From Candidatus Scalindua japonica (GTDB lineage: Bacteria > Planctomycetota > Brocadiia > Brocadiales > Scalinduaceae): a stretch of DNA of 64,000 bases. This document shows, one piece after another, positions 48,531-64,000 of this stretch. The stretch is taken from NCBI RefSeq assembly GCF_002443295.1, contig NZ_BAOS01000007.1, positions 1-64,000 on the forward strand, given 5' to 3'. The notes below the pieces were generated by a model that saw only the letters and a list, made by a program, of their open reading frames with translations, had not been told where the DNA came from and made no database searches. A program made the position numbers and the translations under genes. How positions within the stretch are numbered: position 1 is the first letter of the stretch; the number at the start of each line of letters is the position of its first letter.

Positions 48531-50202
48531 CCTAAATGGGAGAAAAAAGTTAATAACTATGCAATGTGTCTTCCTGGATGCCGAAAGCATCAAAAATAAT
48601 TTTTTGTCTTTTGGATAATTCGCTGAGAATCGGATCGTTTTTCTCTATGTGAGTGATTTTTAATTTTTTGAGTTCAGCAAATAATTCTTTTACTGTGTAT
48701 TTGTTAAATAACTTCTTTTCCTTCATAACTCTTGATGCTTCTGCATAGATAATCAACGCAACAAATTTTATAAATAAACGGCCATCGACATTATATTGAC
48801 TATGTGCTCGCAACCTATCTCCATTCATTTCATTTTTGTATATATCAAACATTTTTTCAACCTGATCTTTTTGGCGATAAAGATTTAATACTTCCGCTTT
48901 GTCCATTTGTTGTTTGTTTGTTATTAACACAAAGCTTCCCATTTTATAAATAAACGATTTTATCTTTTTTGCATTTTTTTCTATCCGCAATGTCGTTTTA
49001 TTCCATTTAAAATAATCTCTGTATTTTTCTGGAATATTTAACTTTCTATATTTCAGGTATTCCTTAAGCACTTTAAAACTTTTATCCTTAAACTTCTCCT
49101 CGTATTCGAATAATACTGAGAAAAAATTATGTTTTTGTTCTACTTCAGATTTTTCATTGAAAAAAATATGTGCGTCAAATTCGTTTCCATCAAATTCAAA
49201 AGGTCTTTGCTGGTAATGCAGTATCTCTTCATTGAATTTAAAGGCACTGGAAAGATCTGACAATAATCGTTTATTTTTTTTTATTAAAGTCTTTACTTTT
49301 TTTAAGCTAAAAGGCAGTGGCTGAACAAAGGACACTTTGCTTTTGCTGTTATTCATTTCCAATACATTTGCTTTACTAAAGAAACCTCTATCCAGCACAA
49401 ACAAAATGTCTTTTAGCTTGAATACTTTCAAATACTCAACGCAGTTCTTTAAGGTAGTAACATCTACAATACTTCCAGGGTATAAATTGTAATAAATGGG
49501 TAAAGAGTGATTGTGGCAAAATGTTACTCCCATATTTAATTGAGGTAGATTCTCTTTATCACGATTGTAACCCCATTCTATAAAATCAACGTTTGTAGAG
49601 TAGCTGGAAATAGAAGTTATATCGTAAAATATCCCGCTGATTGGCTTTAAATGTTCTATCCATTTTTGAACAAACTCTACCCTTTGTGATTGCGATCTTC
49701 CCAAAATATCACACAGTTTTGATATGTCAGGAGAATACATCTTTTTAACTCTCGGCAAATTATGCTCATCAAGCCAATAAGGAAACAGGTACAAGGCCGA
49801 GGCTTCTATAATTTCATAAAATGCTAATGCTAATATCTCTTGATAGTTATCAGGAAAGAGAGATTTTAAAATCTCCGTCAATCCAAGCTTGTCTGATAAA
49901 AATCTTAGCAAAAAGACGTTGCCTTGTCCTTTTGAGACCAAACTGGAACGGATTTGCTTGGTTTTATCCTTATTTACGTTCCGTTTTGGACCGATATAGG
50001 TTCTTCGTTGACGTGATTGCTTTTTTGCTTTATCCCAGTAACTTTCTACCTTGTAGAGGTATATCCTACCTTTTATTTTCTGCTCTACAGTATAAGCCAT
50101 AGTATTAACTATTTAATAACTAGTAAATAGCCGTATAGTACGGTATATACAGTATTAATGCAAATATTAATTCATGGTTATTAACTATTTCTCCAATTCA
50201 GG
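48531..50202. mobile_element. Insertion sequence, IS1634-like (IS4 superfamily)
   Basis: The ends are imperfect inverted repeats: left CCTAAATGGGAGAAAAAAG, right (inverse) CCTGAATTGGAGAAATAG, both continuing GTTAATAAC. They are flanked by a 6-bp direct repeat CTAAAG (48525-48530 and 50203-50208), the target duplication. The 1672-bp unit carries one transposase gene. Intact ends and target duplication indicate a recent, possibly still mobile, insertion. Confidence 0.85.
48550..50100 (-). CDS. IS1634-family DDE transposase
   Basis: A 516-residue DDE transposase filling the insertion sequence. D160 (GIFYDITSIS) and D237 (LFVLDRGFFS) are the first two catalytic residues, and the E is in RQKDQVEKMFDIYKNEMNGDR. 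The conserved WGYNRDKENLPQLNMGV stretch between the two Asp residues matches the family's GxSRDxRPDLPQ motif. The reading frame is unbroken. It runs from just inside the right repeat to just inside the left, with no strong ribosome site, as is common in insertion sequences. Confidence 0.93.
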   Translation of the reverse strand: MAYTVEQKIKGRIYLYKVESYWDKAKKQSRQRRTYIGPKRNVNKDKTKQIRSSLVSKGQGNVFLLRFLSDKLGLTEILKSLFPDNYQEILALAFYEIIEASALYLFPYWLDEHNLPRVKKMYSPDISKLCDILGRSQSQRVEFVQKWIEHLKPISGIFYDITSISSYSTNVDFIEWGYNRDKENLPQLNMGVTFCHNHSLPIYYNLYPGSIVDVTTLKNCVEYLKVFKLKDILFVLDRGFFSKANVLEMNNSKSKVSFVQPLPFSLKKVKTLIKKNKRLLSDLSSAFKFNEEILHYQQRPFEFDGNEFDAHIFFNEKSEVEQKHNFFSVLFEYEEKFKDKSFKVLKEYLKYRKLNIPEKYRDYFKWNKTTLRIEKNAKKIKSFIYKMGSFVLITNKQQMDKAEVLNLYRQKDQVEKMFDIYKNEMNGDRLRAHSQYNVDGRLFIKFVALIIYAEASRVMKEKKLFNKYTVKELFAELKKLKITHIEKNDPILSELSKRQKIIFDAFGIQEDTLHSY

Positions 50203-56367: not shown

Positions 56368-57855
56368 TTAATTATTTTCAACAATCTTTGACCCATCTCT
56401 GCTTATAACTGGACGAAGTAACTCTTTAGGAATCTTTACCTTCTGTAATAGTAAAAACTTGACATTTAAGAGGTAAGCGGCACTATACATTATGATTTCA
56501 GCTATTTCATCTACATGCCTGTTTCTCCATTTCTCTAATTTACTCCCTTTTACCCATTGATTAAATGACCCTAATGCGGGGCTACAATGTACTTGATAAT
56601 CAACTCTATTCTCAGGATCTCCTTCAAAAGCAAGTTTAGTTGTATGATAGAAATACCAACGGAAGATTAAAGCCATTTTATGTTTAGGGTTTTTTTCTGC
56701 TTTTTCAATTTCTAAAGGCGCTATTTTACTAAAATATTCTTTTGTTTCTTCATATACCTGATCGAAACTTCTCTTGAAGTAGTTGTTTTCAATCTGTTTC
56801 TTTGTTTTTGCGTCTATCTCATCTACGCTGTTACAAAACTTATACAACTGAAATAATTTATTTGCCCTGGCGGGGAAAAATACCCCTTTTTTCAGTACCT
56901 GCACCTTTGCCCCTAACTCAAACATATCTCCAGCCGGTGCAAATTCAGTATCCTGAATATTCATATCAGCCAGCAAGTCTTTCACCTGATCGCTGATTCC
57001 TGCCTCAACAGTGCATTGGTTTATAGAACCGGTAACCACATAATCAACCCCCATCATAAAAGCAGCAAGAATTGCATGTGGTGTTCCCAGCCCACCAGCA
57101 GCCCCAACACGTATTTCTTCGGGATATCCGTGCTGTTCCATCGCTCCATCTCTCATCGTCATAATAGCAGGGATCAATGCATAAGCAACACCATTATCAG
57201 TATGCCCGCCGGAATTGGCTTCTGCGGTAATATCAGAGGCCATGGGGATTTTAGCAGATAATTCAGCTTCTTGTTTGGTTATCTTACCGGATTGTACAAG
57301 TATTTTTACTAATTTTTCAGGTGGAGGACTTAAGAACTGTACGGCAACTTCCGGACGTGACAGCTTGGCAATTATTTTATTAGGTACTGTTATGCTCCCA
57401 TCTTCATTTTGTCTGGTACCTTTTACACGATAGTAGACAAGATGTTCGGTAACTTGAAGGTAAGCGGCCGCCTCAATTATAGTAATGCCATGCTTAAGAT
57501 AGAGATCAACCGTCTGCTCCTCAAGCCTGGGGCTTACAAGATTACATAAAAGGTTCATGCCAAAAGGTTCACCATTCGGCAGGTTTTCTTTTATCGCCAA
57601 GATAGCAGTTTGTATCTGGTCTAACTGGCATCCCCCGGTGCCGTAAAATCCCAGGATCCCAGCTTTTGCGGCTGCTGTAATCATTTCTACCGAAGAGATG
57701 CCCCGCACCATTCCGCCTACCACATAGGCAAATTTCAGGTTGTGCTCTTTTATGAACCTTTGACTACCCAAGCCCTCCGGAGATAACAATGTTAGTTGTT
57801 TTGCAAGCCCTTTGAGCTTATCATTCTGGAGAGTGATCATTTCAGCAATATTCAT
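56368..57855 (-). CDS. pfaD: PfaD-family trans-acting enoyl reductase (FMN, nitronate-monooxygenase fold)
   Basis: A 495-residue TIM-barrel flavoprotein used in trans by polyunsaturated fatty acid and polyketide synthases to reduce enoyl-ACP intermediates. The PfaD order is seen: GLGSQRFIKEHNLKFAYVVG, MVRGISSVEMITAAAKAGIL, GFYGTGG, NLLCNLVSPRLEEQTVDLYL, EANSGGHTDNGVAYALIPAI, RVGAAGGLGTPHAI and GVDYVVTGSINQCTVEAG, which are flavin and substrate loops. Both the N-terminal lid and the extra C-terminal ~110 residues of PfaD are present. It follows the acyltransferase gene by eight bases on the same strand, so it is part of the same biosynthetic operon. Confidence 0.93.
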   Translation of the reverse strand: MNIAEMITLQNDKLKGLAKQLTLLSPEGLGSQRFIKEHNLKFAYVVGGMVRGISSVEMITAAAKAGILGFYGTGGCQLDQIQTAILAIKENLPNGEPFGMNLLCNLVSPRLEEQTVDLYLKHGITIIEAAAYLQVTEHLVYYRVKGTRQNEDGSITVPNKIIAKLSRPEVAVQFLSPPPEKLVKILVQSGKITKQEAELSAKIPMASDITAEANSGGHTDNGVAYALIPAIMTMRDGAMEQHGYPEEIRVGAAGGLGTPHAILAAFMMGVDYVVTGSINQCTVEAGISDQVKDLLADMNIQDTEFAPAGDMFELGAKVQVLKKGVFFPARANKLFQLYKFCNSVDEIDAKTKKQIENNYFKRSFDQVYEETKEYFSKIAPLEIEKAEKNPKHKMALIFRWYFYHTTKLAFEGDPENRVDYQVHCSPALGSFNQWVKGSKLEKWRNRHVDEIAEIIMYSAAYLLNVKFLLLQKVKIPKELLRPVISRDGSKIVENN

Positions 57856-57863
57856 GATTTTTA

Positions 57864-58706
57864 TTATTTAATCTGTGCTATCAGTCTGGATAATACATTA
57901 CCAGGGCCTGTTTCTTCAAACTCCGGTGCAGTCTGCTGCTTTAGATATTGAATAGATTCTACCCAACGTACCGGGTTGCTGATTTGCTGAATCATGTTAT
58001 TCATTATTTCATCGTTTTGGTAAGGTTTAGCAGTGTAGTTGGCAATGACTGGAATTTCCAATGGTTTAAATTCAATTTGTCTCAGGAAATCGGCAAACTC
58101 ATTTTGTGCTGCTTGCATGTAACGTGAATGAAAAGCCCCACTCACTTTTAATGGAATAAACATTCTAGCTCCTGCATTTTCAAAAACAGTCTTAACACTA
58201 TCAATATCCTCTTTAAGCCCTGATATAACAGTCTGTGTTGGAGAGTTATAATTAGCAACATCAATTTCGTCAAATCCTGAACCTTCTAAAACCTGCTTAA
58301 TTCTATCCGATTCCATACCTATAACGGCAGCCATCCCTCCTCCACTCGCTTTTACCATAATTTGCCCTCTTCTTTGTACTATTTTTAAACCTGTAACAAA
58401 GTCAAATACTCCAGCAGCAAAAAGGGCATCATACTCACCAAGGCTATGCCCGGCAGCAAAATCAGGACGTAAACTGGCTTGCTCCGTTTTACTCAAATAT
58501 GTAAGTGCATTTACAATATACAAAGCCGGTTGTGTATAATCTGTTTGGCCCATTTTTTTTTCAGGGTCCTCAAGGCAAAGATCCTTTATTGAGTACCCCA
58601 ACACATCATCGGCCTGTTTCACTAATTCAGGAAATTGATCAAACAAATCGCCTCCCATACCAACAGACTGAGACCCTTGACCAGGAAAGACATATATCTT
58701 CGTCAT
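57864..58706 (-). CDS. fabD: Discrete malonyl-CoA:ACP acyltransferase
   Basis: Loads malonyl (or related) units onto acyl carrier proteins. FPGQGSQSVGMGGDL is at the start, the nucleophile is S88 in GHSLGEYDALFAAG, Arg-containing IVQRRGQIM follows, then the catalytic His of SGAFHSRYM, and the family's final blocks. At 280 residues it is a stand-alone AT. Placed beside pfaD and a modular synthase, it probably works in trans for that synthase rather than in general fatty acid synthesis, but this is inference. Directly before the ribosome site there is a run of eight Gs (58713-58720). Confidence 0.9.
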   Translation of the reverse strand: MTKIYVFPGQGSQSVGMGGDLFDQFPELVKQADDVLGYSIKDLCLEDPEKKMGQTDYTQPALYIVNALTYLSKTEQASLRPDFAAGHSLGEYDALFAAGVFDFVTGLKIVQRRGQIMVKASGGGMAAVIGMESDRIKQVLEGSGFDEIDVANYNSPTQTVISGLKEDIDSVKTVFENAGARMFIPLKVSGAFHSRYMQAAQNEFADFLRQIEFKPLEIPVIANYTAKPYQNDEIMNNMIQQISNPVRWVESIQYLKQQTAPEFEETGPGNVLSRLIAQIK

Positions 58707-58881: not shown

Positions 58882-59823
58882 TCAGATTTTCTGTATAACT
58901 TTACACTGAATTTTTTTTGAAGAGGTGGCGGATTCAACCTCATTTTTGTAGACCACTCTTATTAAGTAATATCCATCACAAGGAACAGTTTGACTCAGAT
59001 AACCTGTTTGATCAATCCTAATCCAAAATACCGGAAAACTGCATGTATTATAATAAGCGAGGTAGATATATGCTCTATCTAATACATCTGCCTCAAAATC
59101 TACATGGAGAGAGTTCCCTTTTGTCAGACAACCGTATTCAAATAACGTCTCAGGGTTTCCAACTGGTAAAAATTCGCTCGTAACAAGAGAGGCCGAAAAA
59201 AACTTGTTCCATCTTAGCATGTGGAACATGTAATAGTGCAGACAGTAATAAAAAAAACCACGTTTGTTTTCTATTTGTTTTAAATATGTCTGGTACTCTT
59301 GCATTTCATTATTCATTGAACGGCAAGAAACTCTTTCAATATTGTCCACTCTGACCGCTGGAAATTTTACATCATGACTGCAATTATAATAACGTAAACC
59401 AATACTATACAGGCCCTCTTCCAGATTTACCTTCTGCCATTCTGTTCCTTCTGCCGTATTCATAGAACCGACATAAGCAACAGTCTGATGGCATTCATTG
59501 TAAATAACTAACGTCCACTGTTTTGCCGACCGATTGGCAGCTTCTATTTGTATATCAATACTTGACTCAACCTTTAACGACCCGCCTAAAACACCGATAA
59601 CGGCACTACAGTTCCATCGTGGTCCGGTAACCATGATGTATACCAGACCCATAGGTTGTTTCAATGCTTCGGACAATCCCAACCAATGTACAGGTTCACC
59701 TAAGCTGGACCGACGTCTGACCTCTTTTCTTACAACTTTCTGTAAGCAGAATCTGACAATCCGATAGAAAAAAAATGATAAAACAGACAACGGTAATCGC
59801 CATACGAGACAAATACTTTCCAA
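58882..59823 (-). CDS. DUF6208-like protein of the polyketide locus
   Basis: A 313-residue protein with an N-terminal hydrophobic segment (LPLSVLSFFFYRIVRF), then GPRWNCSAVIGVLG, NRSAKQWTLVIY, LEEGLYSIGLRYYNCSHDVKFPAV and FFYYCLHYYMFHMLRW, followed by VTSEFLPVGNPETLFEYG. I match this from memory to the DUF6208 family found in cyanobacterial loci with glycolipid-type polyketide/fatty-acid synthases. No function is established. The membrane segment and beta-sandwich-like remainder suggest a membrane-bound accessory protein. It lies between the synthase and the acyltransferase gene on the same strand. Confidence 0.65.
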   Translation of the reverse strand: MESICLVWRLPLSVLSFFFYRIVRFCLQKVVRKEVRRRSSLGEPVHWLGLSEALKQPMGLVYIMVTGPRWNCSAVIGVLGGSLKVESSIDIQIEAANRSAKQWTLVIYNECHQTVAYVGSMNTAEGTEWQKVNLEEGLYSIGLRYYNCSHDVKFPAVRVDNIERVSCRSMNNEMQEYQTYLKQIENKRGFFYYCLHYYMFHMLRWNKFFSASLVTSEFLPVGNPETLFEYGCLTKGNSLHVDFEADVLDRAYIYLAYYNTCSFPVFWIRIDQTGYLSQTVPCDGYYLIRVVYKNEVESATSSKKIQCKVIQKI

Positions 59824-59975: not shown

Positions 59976-62900
59976 TCAAGGATTATGCTTTTTGTGACTA
60001 TCGAAACTATCTTTAATTATCAGCTTTGTCATCTGCATCCATTCGCTGACTAATTTTTTTATTGTAATGTGCCGATATTTATTCCTGGAATATCTAGCAA
60101 TCAATACAAGATGATCTTTTCTCATTCTTACTATCAAATCCAATAAATAAAGACGATCATGGCCAGGTGATTCAAAAATATGGGTTTCAACATTTTTAAT
60201 ATTCGAAGTATTGATCTCAGGCTGATAATTCAAGCGAACAGGCCCAATCTCATGAGCATAAGGCAGCAATCCCTGGTTCGAAAGGATTTCATAGGTCACA
60301 CCTCCCATCGGTATTTGCCGATATTTTTCCTTAAAATCCTGAATAAGCCCCCTAACCGATGTTTCTTGTTCAAACGCTAAAGAGATAGGAACATCTCCGG
60401 CAAACCATCCCATAGCATTATGATATTGTCCATTCAAGCCTGTGTCTCTGCGGTGGAGACGATGAGTAATTACGAGCTTTTTCTGTTTCGACCACTTAGA
60501 CAGACAGTGATATAGCCCCACAGACAGATAATCAAAAAAACTACTTTTTTGCCTTGAATCCTCGACACCTAATTCAGCAAATGAATATCTGGCGCTATAT
60601 TCTTTCTCTGAAGCAATATTATTAGGCCCATTGTTAAAATCAACGGGGAATTTCCTCTGTATACCTTCTATTCGTTTACTCCAAAACTTTTCATGGTCTA
60701 CAATTACTCCATTTCTCTCTAACTGGAATAGTTCATCAACATATTTTGCATATTGACGATCTATCTCTCCAATATTCATTTCAGGATTTTGATAGAATTC
60801 AAATAACTCTTTACGCACTAACTCAATGGACGCACCATCGGCTATTAGATGATGTATGACAAAAATAACCTGATATTGCCCCTCCCCCAATGCAGCAACT
60901 CCACACGATAATAAAGGCGCAGTATGGATCTTTAACATTCTATTCAATTTCCGTTCAATATCTTTGAACCGTTTCCGCTTCGCATTATCATCAAGGTTTG
61001 ATACGTCTTCGTAAATAACAGAAGGTTCCGTGTTTTCCTGTTCATACTGTGTCCATTTTCCCTTCTCCAATAAGAAAGTATTTCGTAAGACTGCATGTTT
61101 GTTAACAACCCTCTGAAGGCTGTCTTTAAATCGCCCAATTTCAAACCCTTCATTAAAATGTGTTTTATAGCTTTGTACGATATACCAGACCGGGTCTGGA
61201 CCAAAACGGTCCAGAAATGATGTCTGCGATGGGGAAAGTCTTATACCTTTTGAAGTATTAATTTTATAATTTAATTCTTCAGCTAGCCGAATTGTTTGAG
61301 GACTAAGCTGGTTTGATTTATCTAAATGTTTCTCCCAAATATTTGCAAATTTTGACTCAATCTTACGGTGCTTTGTAAAATTAGGGTCTCCTATTTGAAT
61401 TGAAACTCCGTGAATGCCTTTTGTCATCTTATTCCCATCATATGGAGACAACATCGACTTTTCAAATTCTATATTCAAATAAGAACACAAGGATTTCATG
61501 GTCTTTTCAGGATTTCTGACAAGATCTTCATAACGTATTTCTGCCCATCTGTTTTGAGGTTTTGTTGATAGAAAAGACCGTATATTTGCATTCATCTCTC
61601 TCCACATCTTTTCCGAGAACAACCAGGGATCCTCTTTAATACCTAACATTTTATCAAACCGATTACGCACAAACGATTCCATAACCGCAAGAGGATGACG
61701 TACCAGATAGATGTAAAAAGGATTTTGACTAATCTCTTCTGCTCTTTCCAGTATTGACTTATCCATTGCATAAGAAGGAGATTTGTCCACAACATAACGG
61801 TCACCTGCAAGTTTTTGCAGGTATTGGTAACTTTCTGAAATAGTCAGGTTTTTCGTTTCTAACTCCTGCATTCTCTCCTTTGCCTTTTCTAAAGACAACC
61901 CTTCTAAATCCTTAATCGCCTCAATGAACCCTTCTCTGAAATATATTTGATTGCTTTTAGTCAGCAAACCTTTCCTTTTTTCCAATGTATCAAATGGCAA
62001 GAGATACAATTCCGGAGGAGCAAATAGTTTTGAATGCCCCATCATCATTACCCGTAGTAAGGTAGATCCGGATCTAGGAGTACTTAATATGTATATGAGA
62101 GGTTTTTCACGCTTTGCCCCATTGTCATTTGCTTTTTCCTGAATAGTTACAGGTTGTAATTGTGTCAGTTCCTTTTCCAGATAGCTTGTTAACTTTTCAA
62201 TAGTATTATATTCCAGTAATTCTCGTGGATATAGTTTCAATCCGTAATATGACTCTATTTCCTGCACAATCTGCATTCCAAGGATAGAATCTATTCCCAG
62301 ATCATGCAGATCTGCATCAGGATCAATCCTATCCATGTCAATATTCATAATTCCAGAGATAGTTTTCAGTAAAAACATACTGATATCTTCTTTCTTACCA
62401 GCCACGACATTCAACGTTTTCTCATTTTCACATTTTAAATCCCGGGCAACAGCGACCGTATCAGAGGTGATAATATTTTTTTCCGTATGCTGCACCTGTA
62501 GTAACTTATCTACCTTGTCCTTTTCACCATCAATAACAATAACTTGTGGTTGTTCTGAGACTAATGCGCTCTCAAATGCCTTTACCCCTTGTGCACTGTT
62601 TAGCACTCTTATCCCATATGAATTGAGCATCATCTGTTCTGCTTCAACGCTCAAAGCCATTCCACCCTCTTTCCATAACGGCCAATTGATAGATAGACTA
62701 ATCCCCTTCCTCTTACCTTCTGCCCTTAATAACTCCCTCGTCTCCACATAACTATCCATAAAGCTATTTCCGCTTGAATAATCACACTGCCCTATGTTCC
62801 CTATTACTGAAGAAAGTGAAGAAAATAATACAAAGAAATCTAAATCTTCGTCCTTTGTCACTTGATCAAGGTTTAGCAATCCATAAAGCTTCGGACTAAT

Positions 62901-64000
62901 GACATTCTCAAACGAATCTCGCTCTTTCTTTATAATTAATGTGTCATCAATTACCCCGGCACTGTGTATTACCCCATCAAGTTTCTTGAATCTTTCCCTG
63001 GTGGCCCTAATGACTCTTTCCATATCATCCGACTTGCATATATCTGATTGTACATATATAACTTCTCCTCCTGATTTCTCTATCTCTCTTATCTTCTCCT
63101 GCTTCTCTTTACTAAGATGGGACCTTCCGGTTAAGACTAACCTGGCTTGATATCTATCACCCAAATATTTTGCAAAGATTAAGCCAATGCCTCCGGTCCC
63201 GCCAGTGATCAAATACACACCTTTTTCTCTGAGAGGAATTTGTTTATCTCCTATATCTTCTTTGATATCTAATTCTGAAACCCTCCTGACAAATCGTTTA
63301 TTATTCTTGTATAATATTTCGGTTTGGTCATTATTCTCAACAGAATGCAACTCCCTGATTGCAATATTTAATACTTCTGTATCCGTCTCCTTACGATCAA
63401 CCTGGATTACTTTGAAATCATACCCCGGATGTTCCAGCTTTATTGTTTTCGCATATCCGGATACGGCAGCATCCTGTGGCTGGGTAATCTTTTTGGAACG
63501 GTGAAATAGATATAATACTCTTAATCCTTTCTCGAATTTAAGTCCAATAATCGCCTTGCTGAGATAAAATATTGAAAATAGACCTCTGTTAAGATCCTCT
63601 TTTATATCATCTTTGCATAATTCAGAAATGTCTACTGATAAATAGTTCCATAGATGAATAATACTGACTGGGCCGGGTTTTTGGCAACACGTCTCTTCCA
63701 ACAATCTCAGATAATCTCCCTGATTTTCAGGATTTATTTGATATTCAGTTTCAGAAAGCCTACTAAACCGGGGACCCGGACTTACATAAACCGCATCTTC
63801 CAAACTATCTATTTCATTTGTAACAGGTCCTGCATTATGGACACTCTCCTCTCCCTTCTGAAAAATGAGAACACTACCTGTTTCTCTTTTAACTTCAGAC
63901 CCTGTAAGATTTAATCTCTTCCATATTGGCTGGTAATATAAAATATTTCCATAACCGCTATTAAGTGGGACCGTATCGACTGTATCCTTAACTGATGATA
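59976..64000 (-). CDS. Type I polyketide/fatty-acid synthase C-terminal part: KR-ACP-sulfotransferase-condensation (5' end beyond window)
   Basis: The reading frame stays open to the window edge (it reads SVKDTVDTVPLNS at the start, then YYQPIWKRL), so the TTG at 63803 is not the start and the gene is longer. Residues counted from that TTG: ketoreductase with GGTGGIG at 201-207, K305, the Ser of FSSLSS and Y342 (QCDYSSGN). An ACP follows, with the phosphopantetheine Ser506 in DLGIDSILG. Next is a PAPS-dependent sulfotransferase (phosphate loop STPRSGSTLL at 574-583; VRHPLAVMESF). The C-terminal NRPS condensation-type domain has an intact HHLIADG at 984-990. Upstream modules are unseen. Trans AT, PfaD and a DUF6208-like protein follow in the same direction. 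Confidence 0.92.
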   Translation of the reverse strand, partial: SSVKDTVDTVPLNSGYGNILYYQPIWKRLNLTGSEVKRETGSVLIFQKGEESVHNAGPVTNEIDSLEDAVYVSPGPRFSRLSETEYQINPENQGDYLRLLEETCCQKPGPVSIIHLWNYLSVDISELCKDDIKEDLNRGLFSIFYLSKAIIGLKFEKGLRVLYLFHRSKKITQPQDAAVSGYAKTIKLEHPGYDFKVIQVDRKETDTEVLNIAIRELHSVENNDQTEILYKNNKRFVRRVSELDIKEDIGDKQIPLREKGVYLITGGTGGIGLIFAKYLGDRYQARLVLTGRSHLSKEKQEKIREIEKSGGEVIYVQSDICKSDDMERVIRATRERFKKLDGVIHSAGVIDDTLIIKKERDSFENVISPKLYGLLNLDQVTKDEDLDFFVLFSSLSSVIGNIGQCDYSSGNSFMDSYVETRELLRAEGKRKGISLSINWPLWKEGGMALSVEAEQMMLNSYGIRVLNSAQGVKAFESALVSEQPQVIVIDGEKDKVDKLLQVQHTEKNIITSDTVAVARDLKCENEKTLNVVAGKKEDISMFLLKTISGIMNIDMDRIDPDADLHDLGIDSILGMQIVQEIESYYGLKLYPRELLEYNTIEKLTSYLEKELTQLQPVTIQEKANDNGAKREKPLIYILSTPRSGSTLLRVMMMGHSKLFAPPELYLLPFDTLEKRKGLLTKSNQIYFREGFIEAIKDLEGLSLEKAKERMQELETKNLTISESYQYLQKLAGDRYVVDKSPSYAMDKSILERAEEISQNPFYIYLVRHPLAVMESFVRNRFDKMLGIKEDPWLFSEKMWREMNANIRSFLSTKPQNRWAEIRYEDLVRNPEKTMKSLCSYLNIEFEKSMLSPYDGNKMTKGIHGVSIQIGDPNFTKHRKIESKFANIWEKHLDKSNQLSPQTIRLAEELNYKINTSKGIRLSPSQTSFLDRFGPDPVWYIVQSYKTHFNEGFEIGRFKDSLQRVVNKHAVLRNTFLLEKGKWTQYEQENTEPSVIYEDVSNLDDNAKRKRFKDIERKLNRMLKIHTAPLLSCGVAALGEGQYQVIFVIHHLIADGASIELVRKELFEFYQNPEMNIGEIDRQYAKYVDELFQLERNGVIVDHEKFWSKRIEGIQRKFPVDFNNGPNNIASEKEYSARYSFAELGVEDSRQKSSFFDYLSVGLYHCLSKWSKQKKLVITHRLHRRDTGLNGQYHNAMGWFAGDVPISLAFEQETSVRGLIQDFKEKYRQIPMGGVTYEILSNQGLLPYAHEIGPVRLNYQPEINTSNIKNVETHIFESPGHDRLYLLDLIVRMRKDHLVLIARYSRNKYRHITIKKLVSEWMQMTKLIIKDSFDSHKKHNP

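Follow-up and report, generated by a model that had tools for sequence, protein, structure and literature searches.

Sulfotransferase-thioesterase (ST-TE) chain ends are known from curacin, Ols and haliamide (PMC3903477, PMC6274090), and the Ols synthase has the domain order FAAL-ACP-KS-AT-KR-ACP-ST-TE (PMC3903477). In the open literature, to which our search was confined (subscription papers, MIBiG and antiSMASH lay outside its scope), we found no description of a sulfotransferase followed by a condensation-type domain (ST-C), also when looking for ST ends in trans-AT assembly lines, and nothing on DUF6208 or CurN. An ST-C end of this kind is encoded in the window, i.e. the whole stretch of 64,000 nucleotides from Candidatus Scalindua japonica that was analysed here. 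The presence of a hydrazine synthase alpha homologue identifies the window genome as that of an anammox planctomycete.

The ORF of the window synthase is still open at position 65394, where the contig ends, so the protein is cut upstream and its N-terminus is missing. In the 1805 residues that are visible, Pfam detected a partial KS followed by ketoreductase (KR), acyl carrier protein (ACP), ST and C domains in this order, all above the cut-off; neither an acyltransferase (AT) in the module nor a thioesterase or other domain after the C domain was found in this chain. A module without AT and a free-standing AT in the cluster mark the system as a trans-AT polyketide synthase (PKS). The first-pass annotation had placed ACP, ST and a condensation-type domain in one chain, with the last of them standing where a TE would be expected after an ACP-ST of the CurM/Ols kind, and both statements were confirmed. 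The DUF6208 gene is located between the synthase and the downstream AT and PfaD-type reductase genes (Table 1). A DDE transposase gene (window 48550-50100) lies between the PKS end of the contig and housekeeping-like genes to the left. A pseudogene reading of the synthase was rejected, since the frame continues uninterrupted to the end of the contig.

Table 1. Features of the synthase region (window coordinates) and further loci encoding DUF6208
Feature	Position	Strand	Basis or remark
Synthase ORF	59976..63998	-	
KR structural half, Pfam Beta-ketacyl_N PF21394	63351..63875	-	residues 507-681 of the synthase
Ketoreductase KR	62667..63221	-	residues 725-909, 180 bits
Acyl carrier protein, GIDS attachment motif	62169..62378	-	residues 1006-1075; PP-binding 59 bits
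Sulfotransferase, CurM/Ols type	61251..62102	-	263 bits to 4gbm, 240 bits to 4gox; Sulfotransfer_3 87 bits
PAPS loop STPRSGSTLLR	starts at 62084	-	
Terminal condensation-superfamily, epimerization-like domain	59979..61244	-	Pfam Condensation 152 bits; profile, tree, fold
HHLIADG motif of terminal domain	60854-60834	-	
HRLHRR motif of terminal domain	about 60464-60447	-	
DUF6208 gene, next after synthase	58882..59823	-	440 bits
Free-standing acyltransferase (trans-AT)	57864..58706	-	Acyl_transf_1 120 bits
PfaD-type enoyl reductase (NMO + FabD helical insertion domain)	56368..57855	-	
Further DUF6208 loci	L032 3418-4356; L037; L038; L047; L048		

Altogether six ST-C ends were found in three genomes, two of them in the window genome, three in G130 from the same phylum and one in Desulfocucumis palustris (Bacillota). 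The second copy of the window genome terminates a long trans-AT cluster, located on contig C1. Since the order recurs in six genes, with 52% identity over ACP-ST-C within the same genome and 41% in the D. palustris protein from a different phylum, chance and an artefactual assembly join were rejected as its source. No more ST-C ends were seen among the ST matches in 392 genomes of the window phylum and in 399 from the phylum of D. palustris, each set being a sample of a larger group (a contig-edge Bacillota match, G731, was left out), and a scan of genome contigs with short conserved peptides returned D. palustris only. The D. palustris protein is a single chain of 2702 residues with the order FAAL-ACP-KS-KR-ACP-ST-C. 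Its gene is followed by a DUF6208 gene (L010 12197-13222) and then by a gene for APS kinase, the enzyme making PAPS; two genes for hydrolases of the metallo-beta-lactamase fold are also located downstream, and no AT was seen in the flank examined (locus L010). A KS-KR-ACP-ST module, which implies a beta-hydroxy substrate, is present in the window, in the contig C1 copy and in D. palustris, and the last module of the G130 copies has no KR in cis. DH domains occur elsewhere in the ST-C assembly lines.

The surroundings of these copies show some additional features. The second ST-C gene of the window genome is directly followed (contig C1, 113200-118432, L009) by three genes for radical SAM proteins of the B12-binding type and one for a methyltransferase, all assigned by eye. 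The trans-AT cluster that this gene terminates also contains, at about 69861-73068 (L062), a BcrAD/BadFG-type ATPase gene and two genes resembling the D-component of 2-hydroxyglutaryl-CoA dehydratase; an oxygen-sensitive radical dehydratase of this type is unusual within a polyketide cluster. Apparent frameshifts, due to sequencing error or decay, interrupt two KS domains of this cluster, one at about 106112 and the other at about 63400 of contig C1. In G130, contig C82 (L035 6201-20000) encodes a mid-line ST related to the sulfotransferases of the ST-C ends, followed by ACP-KS-ACP and a terminal divergent E-like domain (HHLASDG), which perhaps represents an intermediate arrangement.

Among solved structures, the window ST matched those of CurM (4gbm) and Ols (4gox) over the full length with the scores given in Table 1, and the next family followed at 24 bits. 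Its PAPS loop is intact, as had been noted in the first-pass annotation, and the 5' PAPS loop PR[SA]GSTLLR is kept in all six ST-C members. The window ST is of the CurM/Ols type, and its sequence predicts the transfer of a sulfo group to a beta-hydroxyacyl-ACP. In the ST tree, the sulfotransferases of the ST-C proteins form their own group, separate from CurM and Ols. The GxH motif was dropped as a catalytic marker of the ST, since it is not invariant even within the CurM-type enzymes.

The terminal domain groups with epimerization (E) domains of non-ribosomal peptide synthetases (NRPS). When solved structures were searched, both the single domain and a six-member profile had chains with epimerization domains as their top matches (BacC, PvdL E2, TycB3, TycA, GrsA). 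In trees calculated with FastTree and IQ-TREE, for which E, DCL and LCL domains of bacillomycin synthetase (types assigned from module order) and other loci served as references, the six ST-C terminal domains formed one clade with full support, located on the E side of the split from ordinary C domains (split support 100). The AlphaFold model of the domain is of moderate quality (pLDDT 65.7, pTM 0.55), and its best PDB matches in Foldseek were again E domains, with the enacyloxin C domain (6cgo) also among the matches. The E-domain motif EGHGRE is replaced by HRxHRR in all six ST-C domains, which puts a His at the position of the catalytic Glu of epimerases, and the E-domain model TIGR01720 scores 23.6 bits, far below its cut-off of 74.2. 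By its sequence, the ST-C terminal domain looks epimerase-derived, and its motif is not that of an epimerase. The HHxxxDG motif, previously noted as intact, is present in the window and, as HHL[IV][AT]DG, in five of the six members; the D. palustris domain has HMLIADG without the second His, so that the motif is not strictly kept among ST-C domains. The first-pass annotation had named a loss of HHxxxDG residues in close relatives as evidence against its reading, and the D. palustris domain provides this in part. Its Met shows either that not every member requires the usual catalytic His or that this member works differently. H131, D136, G137, HRxHRR and FAGDxP belong to the most conserved residues of the six diverse domains and are located around the expected active site.

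Chain ends with a sulfotransferase repeatedly have DUF6208 as their partner, an association that emerged from the present analysis and not from published criteria. DUF6208 was detected in four of 392 genomes of the window phylum, which all belong to the nine genomes carrying a CurM-type ST (hypergeometric 1.3e-7, a value that ignores relatedness), and in one of 300 genomes of the D. palustris phylum, namely D. palustris itself. The DUF6208 gene is the next gene after ST-C in the window, in D. palustris and at one G130 locus, and the next gene after ST-TE in two further genomes, G121 and G098, where the first match of the G121 TE is the decarboxylating TE of CurM (3qit, 220 bits) and that of G098 scores 193 bits against the Calothrix TE. 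Out of 72,556 plasmids, DUF6208 was found in those of Calothrix brevissima NIES-22 and Aulosira laxa NIES-50, the same two that gave the best ST matches. In both, it is located directly 3' of a synthase ending in ST-TE; the Calothrix TE has 3qit as its first match with 491 bits, and further genes upstream in this region include one for adenylylsulfate kinase. DUF6208 was not found anywhere on the Agrobacterium vitis plasmid or in the whole genome G224, where an ST is combined with an ordinary TE, nor in the genomes where the ST precedes NRPS C domains (G001) or has nothing after it (G254, G205). The A. vitis plasmid pRvVAT039a encodes another kind of ST-using pathway that lacks DUF6208 (L060 13042-16689), with a short NRPS that has ST and an ordinary TE at its end and is located beside cysD, cysN and ectB. 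Within the sampled genomes and plasmids, DUF6208 adjoins only an ST with a CurM-type decarboxylating TE, or ST-C, apart from one G130 copy beside a C remnant. There, on contig C30 (L036 2754-4614), a degraded C-domain remnant is located just upstream of the intact second DUF6208 gene of G130. Next door to the contig C1 copy and to two G130 ST-C copies, DUF6208 is absent. The restriction of DUF6208 to decarboxylating ST ends, together with its presence at ST-C ends, favours the same alkene outcome for ST-C.

The predicted structure of DUF6208 (pLDDT 84, pTM 0.80) shows a long helix at the N-terminus, and its similarities, all of them weak, are confined to proteins of unknown function (6ans and VPA0735, 2p3y; TM 0.44-0.48). 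An alignment prepared for structure prediction comprised the window and selected loci, without plasmid rows. That DUF6208 is itself the missing release enzyme is unlikely, since it is also found beside ST and TE and is absent next to three ST-C copies.

These data led us to lean slightly towards reading the window as the terminal module of a trans-AT PKS that forms a terminal alkene by the logic of CurM and Ols, with an epimerization-like domain in place of the decarboxylating TE. KS and KR would build a beta-hydroxyacyl-ACP, and the ST would move the sulfo group from PAPS onto the beta-hydroxyl. The E-like domain would then take the role of the TE and free the beta-sulfooxy acid from the ACP, and the freed acid would lose CO2 and sulfate together, leaving the terminal alkene. 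The basic HRxHRR at the position of the epimerase Glu could bind the sulfate, which is our guess. Epimerization domains act on one carrier-bound substrate; the E-like ancestry thus fits a one-substrate reaction better than a transfer to an acceptor. The Met in HMLIADG of D. palustris, the three copies without an adjoining DUF6208, the separate ST group and the lack of a KR in cis in G130 speak against the alkene reading, and so does the epimerization fold itself, which to our knowledge has not been assigned a hydrolytic role. A broader evolutionary proposal can be put forward only tentatively: a descendant of an E domain with a new HRxHRR active site might have replaced the decarboxylating TE, giving a second, independently evolved sulfate-driven decarboxylative release that occurs in anaerobes, and DUF6208 might accompany sulfate-dependent alkene formation in general.

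It is less likely that the terminal domain is a true condensation catalyst, which would release the beta-sulfooxyacyl chain by coupling it to an alcohol or amine, with a sulfated ester or amide as the stable product, or would join two acyl chains. The HHxxxDG motif of five of the six members would suit such a catalyst, and the transfer of a trans-AT polyketide to an acceptor by a terminal C domain has a precedent in enacyloxin (6cgo). However, the closest kin of the domain are E domains and not acceptor-using C domains, no acceptor-making gene is common to the ST-C clusters, D. palustris has HMLIADG, and DUF6208 is shared with the decarboxylating ST-TE ends. Release by ester or amide formation and the joining of two acyl chains had both been proposed in the first-pass annotation; neither is supported, as the domain groups with the one-substrate E domains and the common DUF6208 points to the same outcome as in the ST-TE ends.

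Quite improbable is a sulfate-driven dehydration, in which the terminal domain would keep an epimerase-like chemistry and remove the alpha proton of the beta-sulfooxyacyl-ACP, so that sulfate leaves, an enoyl-ACP is formed and another protein releases the chain. The position in an E-like clade, the placement right after the carrier-ST unit and the chemistry of sulfate as a good leaving group are consistent with this reaction, but the His that replaces the epimerase Glu in all six members argues against it, the same result would be obtained without PAPS from a DH domain, a type that these lines contain at other places, and no release enzyme common to the clusters follows. Very improbable is a non-catalytic scaffold, e.g. 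one on which a separate hydrolase or DUF6208 docks: such a role would agree with HMLIADG and the two metallo-beta-lactamase-fold hydrolase genes of D. palustris and has a precedent in the X domain of glycopeptide synthetases, an E-like relative that lost catalysis and recruits P450s, but the residues near the expected active site rank with the best conserved ones of the six diverse members, unlike a decayed site, no hydrolase is common to the clusters, and DUF6208 is absent beside three copies.

Since off-loading decides the product of an assembly line, the alkene-forming reading of the ST-C end would have several implications. The ST-C end is probably a second, undescribed route to a terminal double bond. 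If this is true, the terminal domain would represent a new kind of off-loading domain and a non-epimerase job for the epimerization fold, and the orphan family DUF6208 would be tied to alkene formation. ACP-ST-C would then offer a compact test piece, and the D. palustris protein a one-protein 1-alkene candidate for engineering. In a rule-based annotation, the terminal domain would probably be taken for the condensation or epimerization domain of an NRPS, and the predicted product would be wrong.

Among the known systems, the releasing C domain of enacyloxin (6cgo) resembles the terminal domain of the window in that it belongs to the condensation superfamily and terminates a trans-AT PKS; it is not the nearest kin, and in the window an ST precedes the domain and no acceptor gene was recognised. 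The NRPS E domains (TycA, TycB3, GrsA, BacC and PvdL E) are the nearest by profile, tree and fold, and their HHxxxDG, GW-F and IPxxGxxYxIL motifs also occur in the terminal domain, which differs from them in HRxHRR for EGHGRE, in its TIGR01720 score below the cut-off and in its position after an ST rather than in an amino-acid module. The D. palustris protein is like Ols in its FAAL-ACP-KS-KR-ACP-ST order and in the ST family, and differs in the C-type domain for TE and in having no AT in cis. The window protein closes an assembly line that is either longer or truncated, and its starter is not visible. The alpha/beta-hydrolase TE that follows the ST in ST-TE alkene synthases is absent from the window synthase, so we did not file it as an ST-TE terminal alkene synthase. 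Compared with the terminal module of CurM (curacin A; KS-AT-KR-ACP-ST-TE), the window has its AT in trans and an epimerization-like domain of the C superfamily for the TE, but both share the ACP-ST order, the ST family and a KR-made beta-hydroxyacyl substrate, and the DUF6208 gene beside the window synthase is likewise found beside cyanobacterial relatives of the CurM TE.
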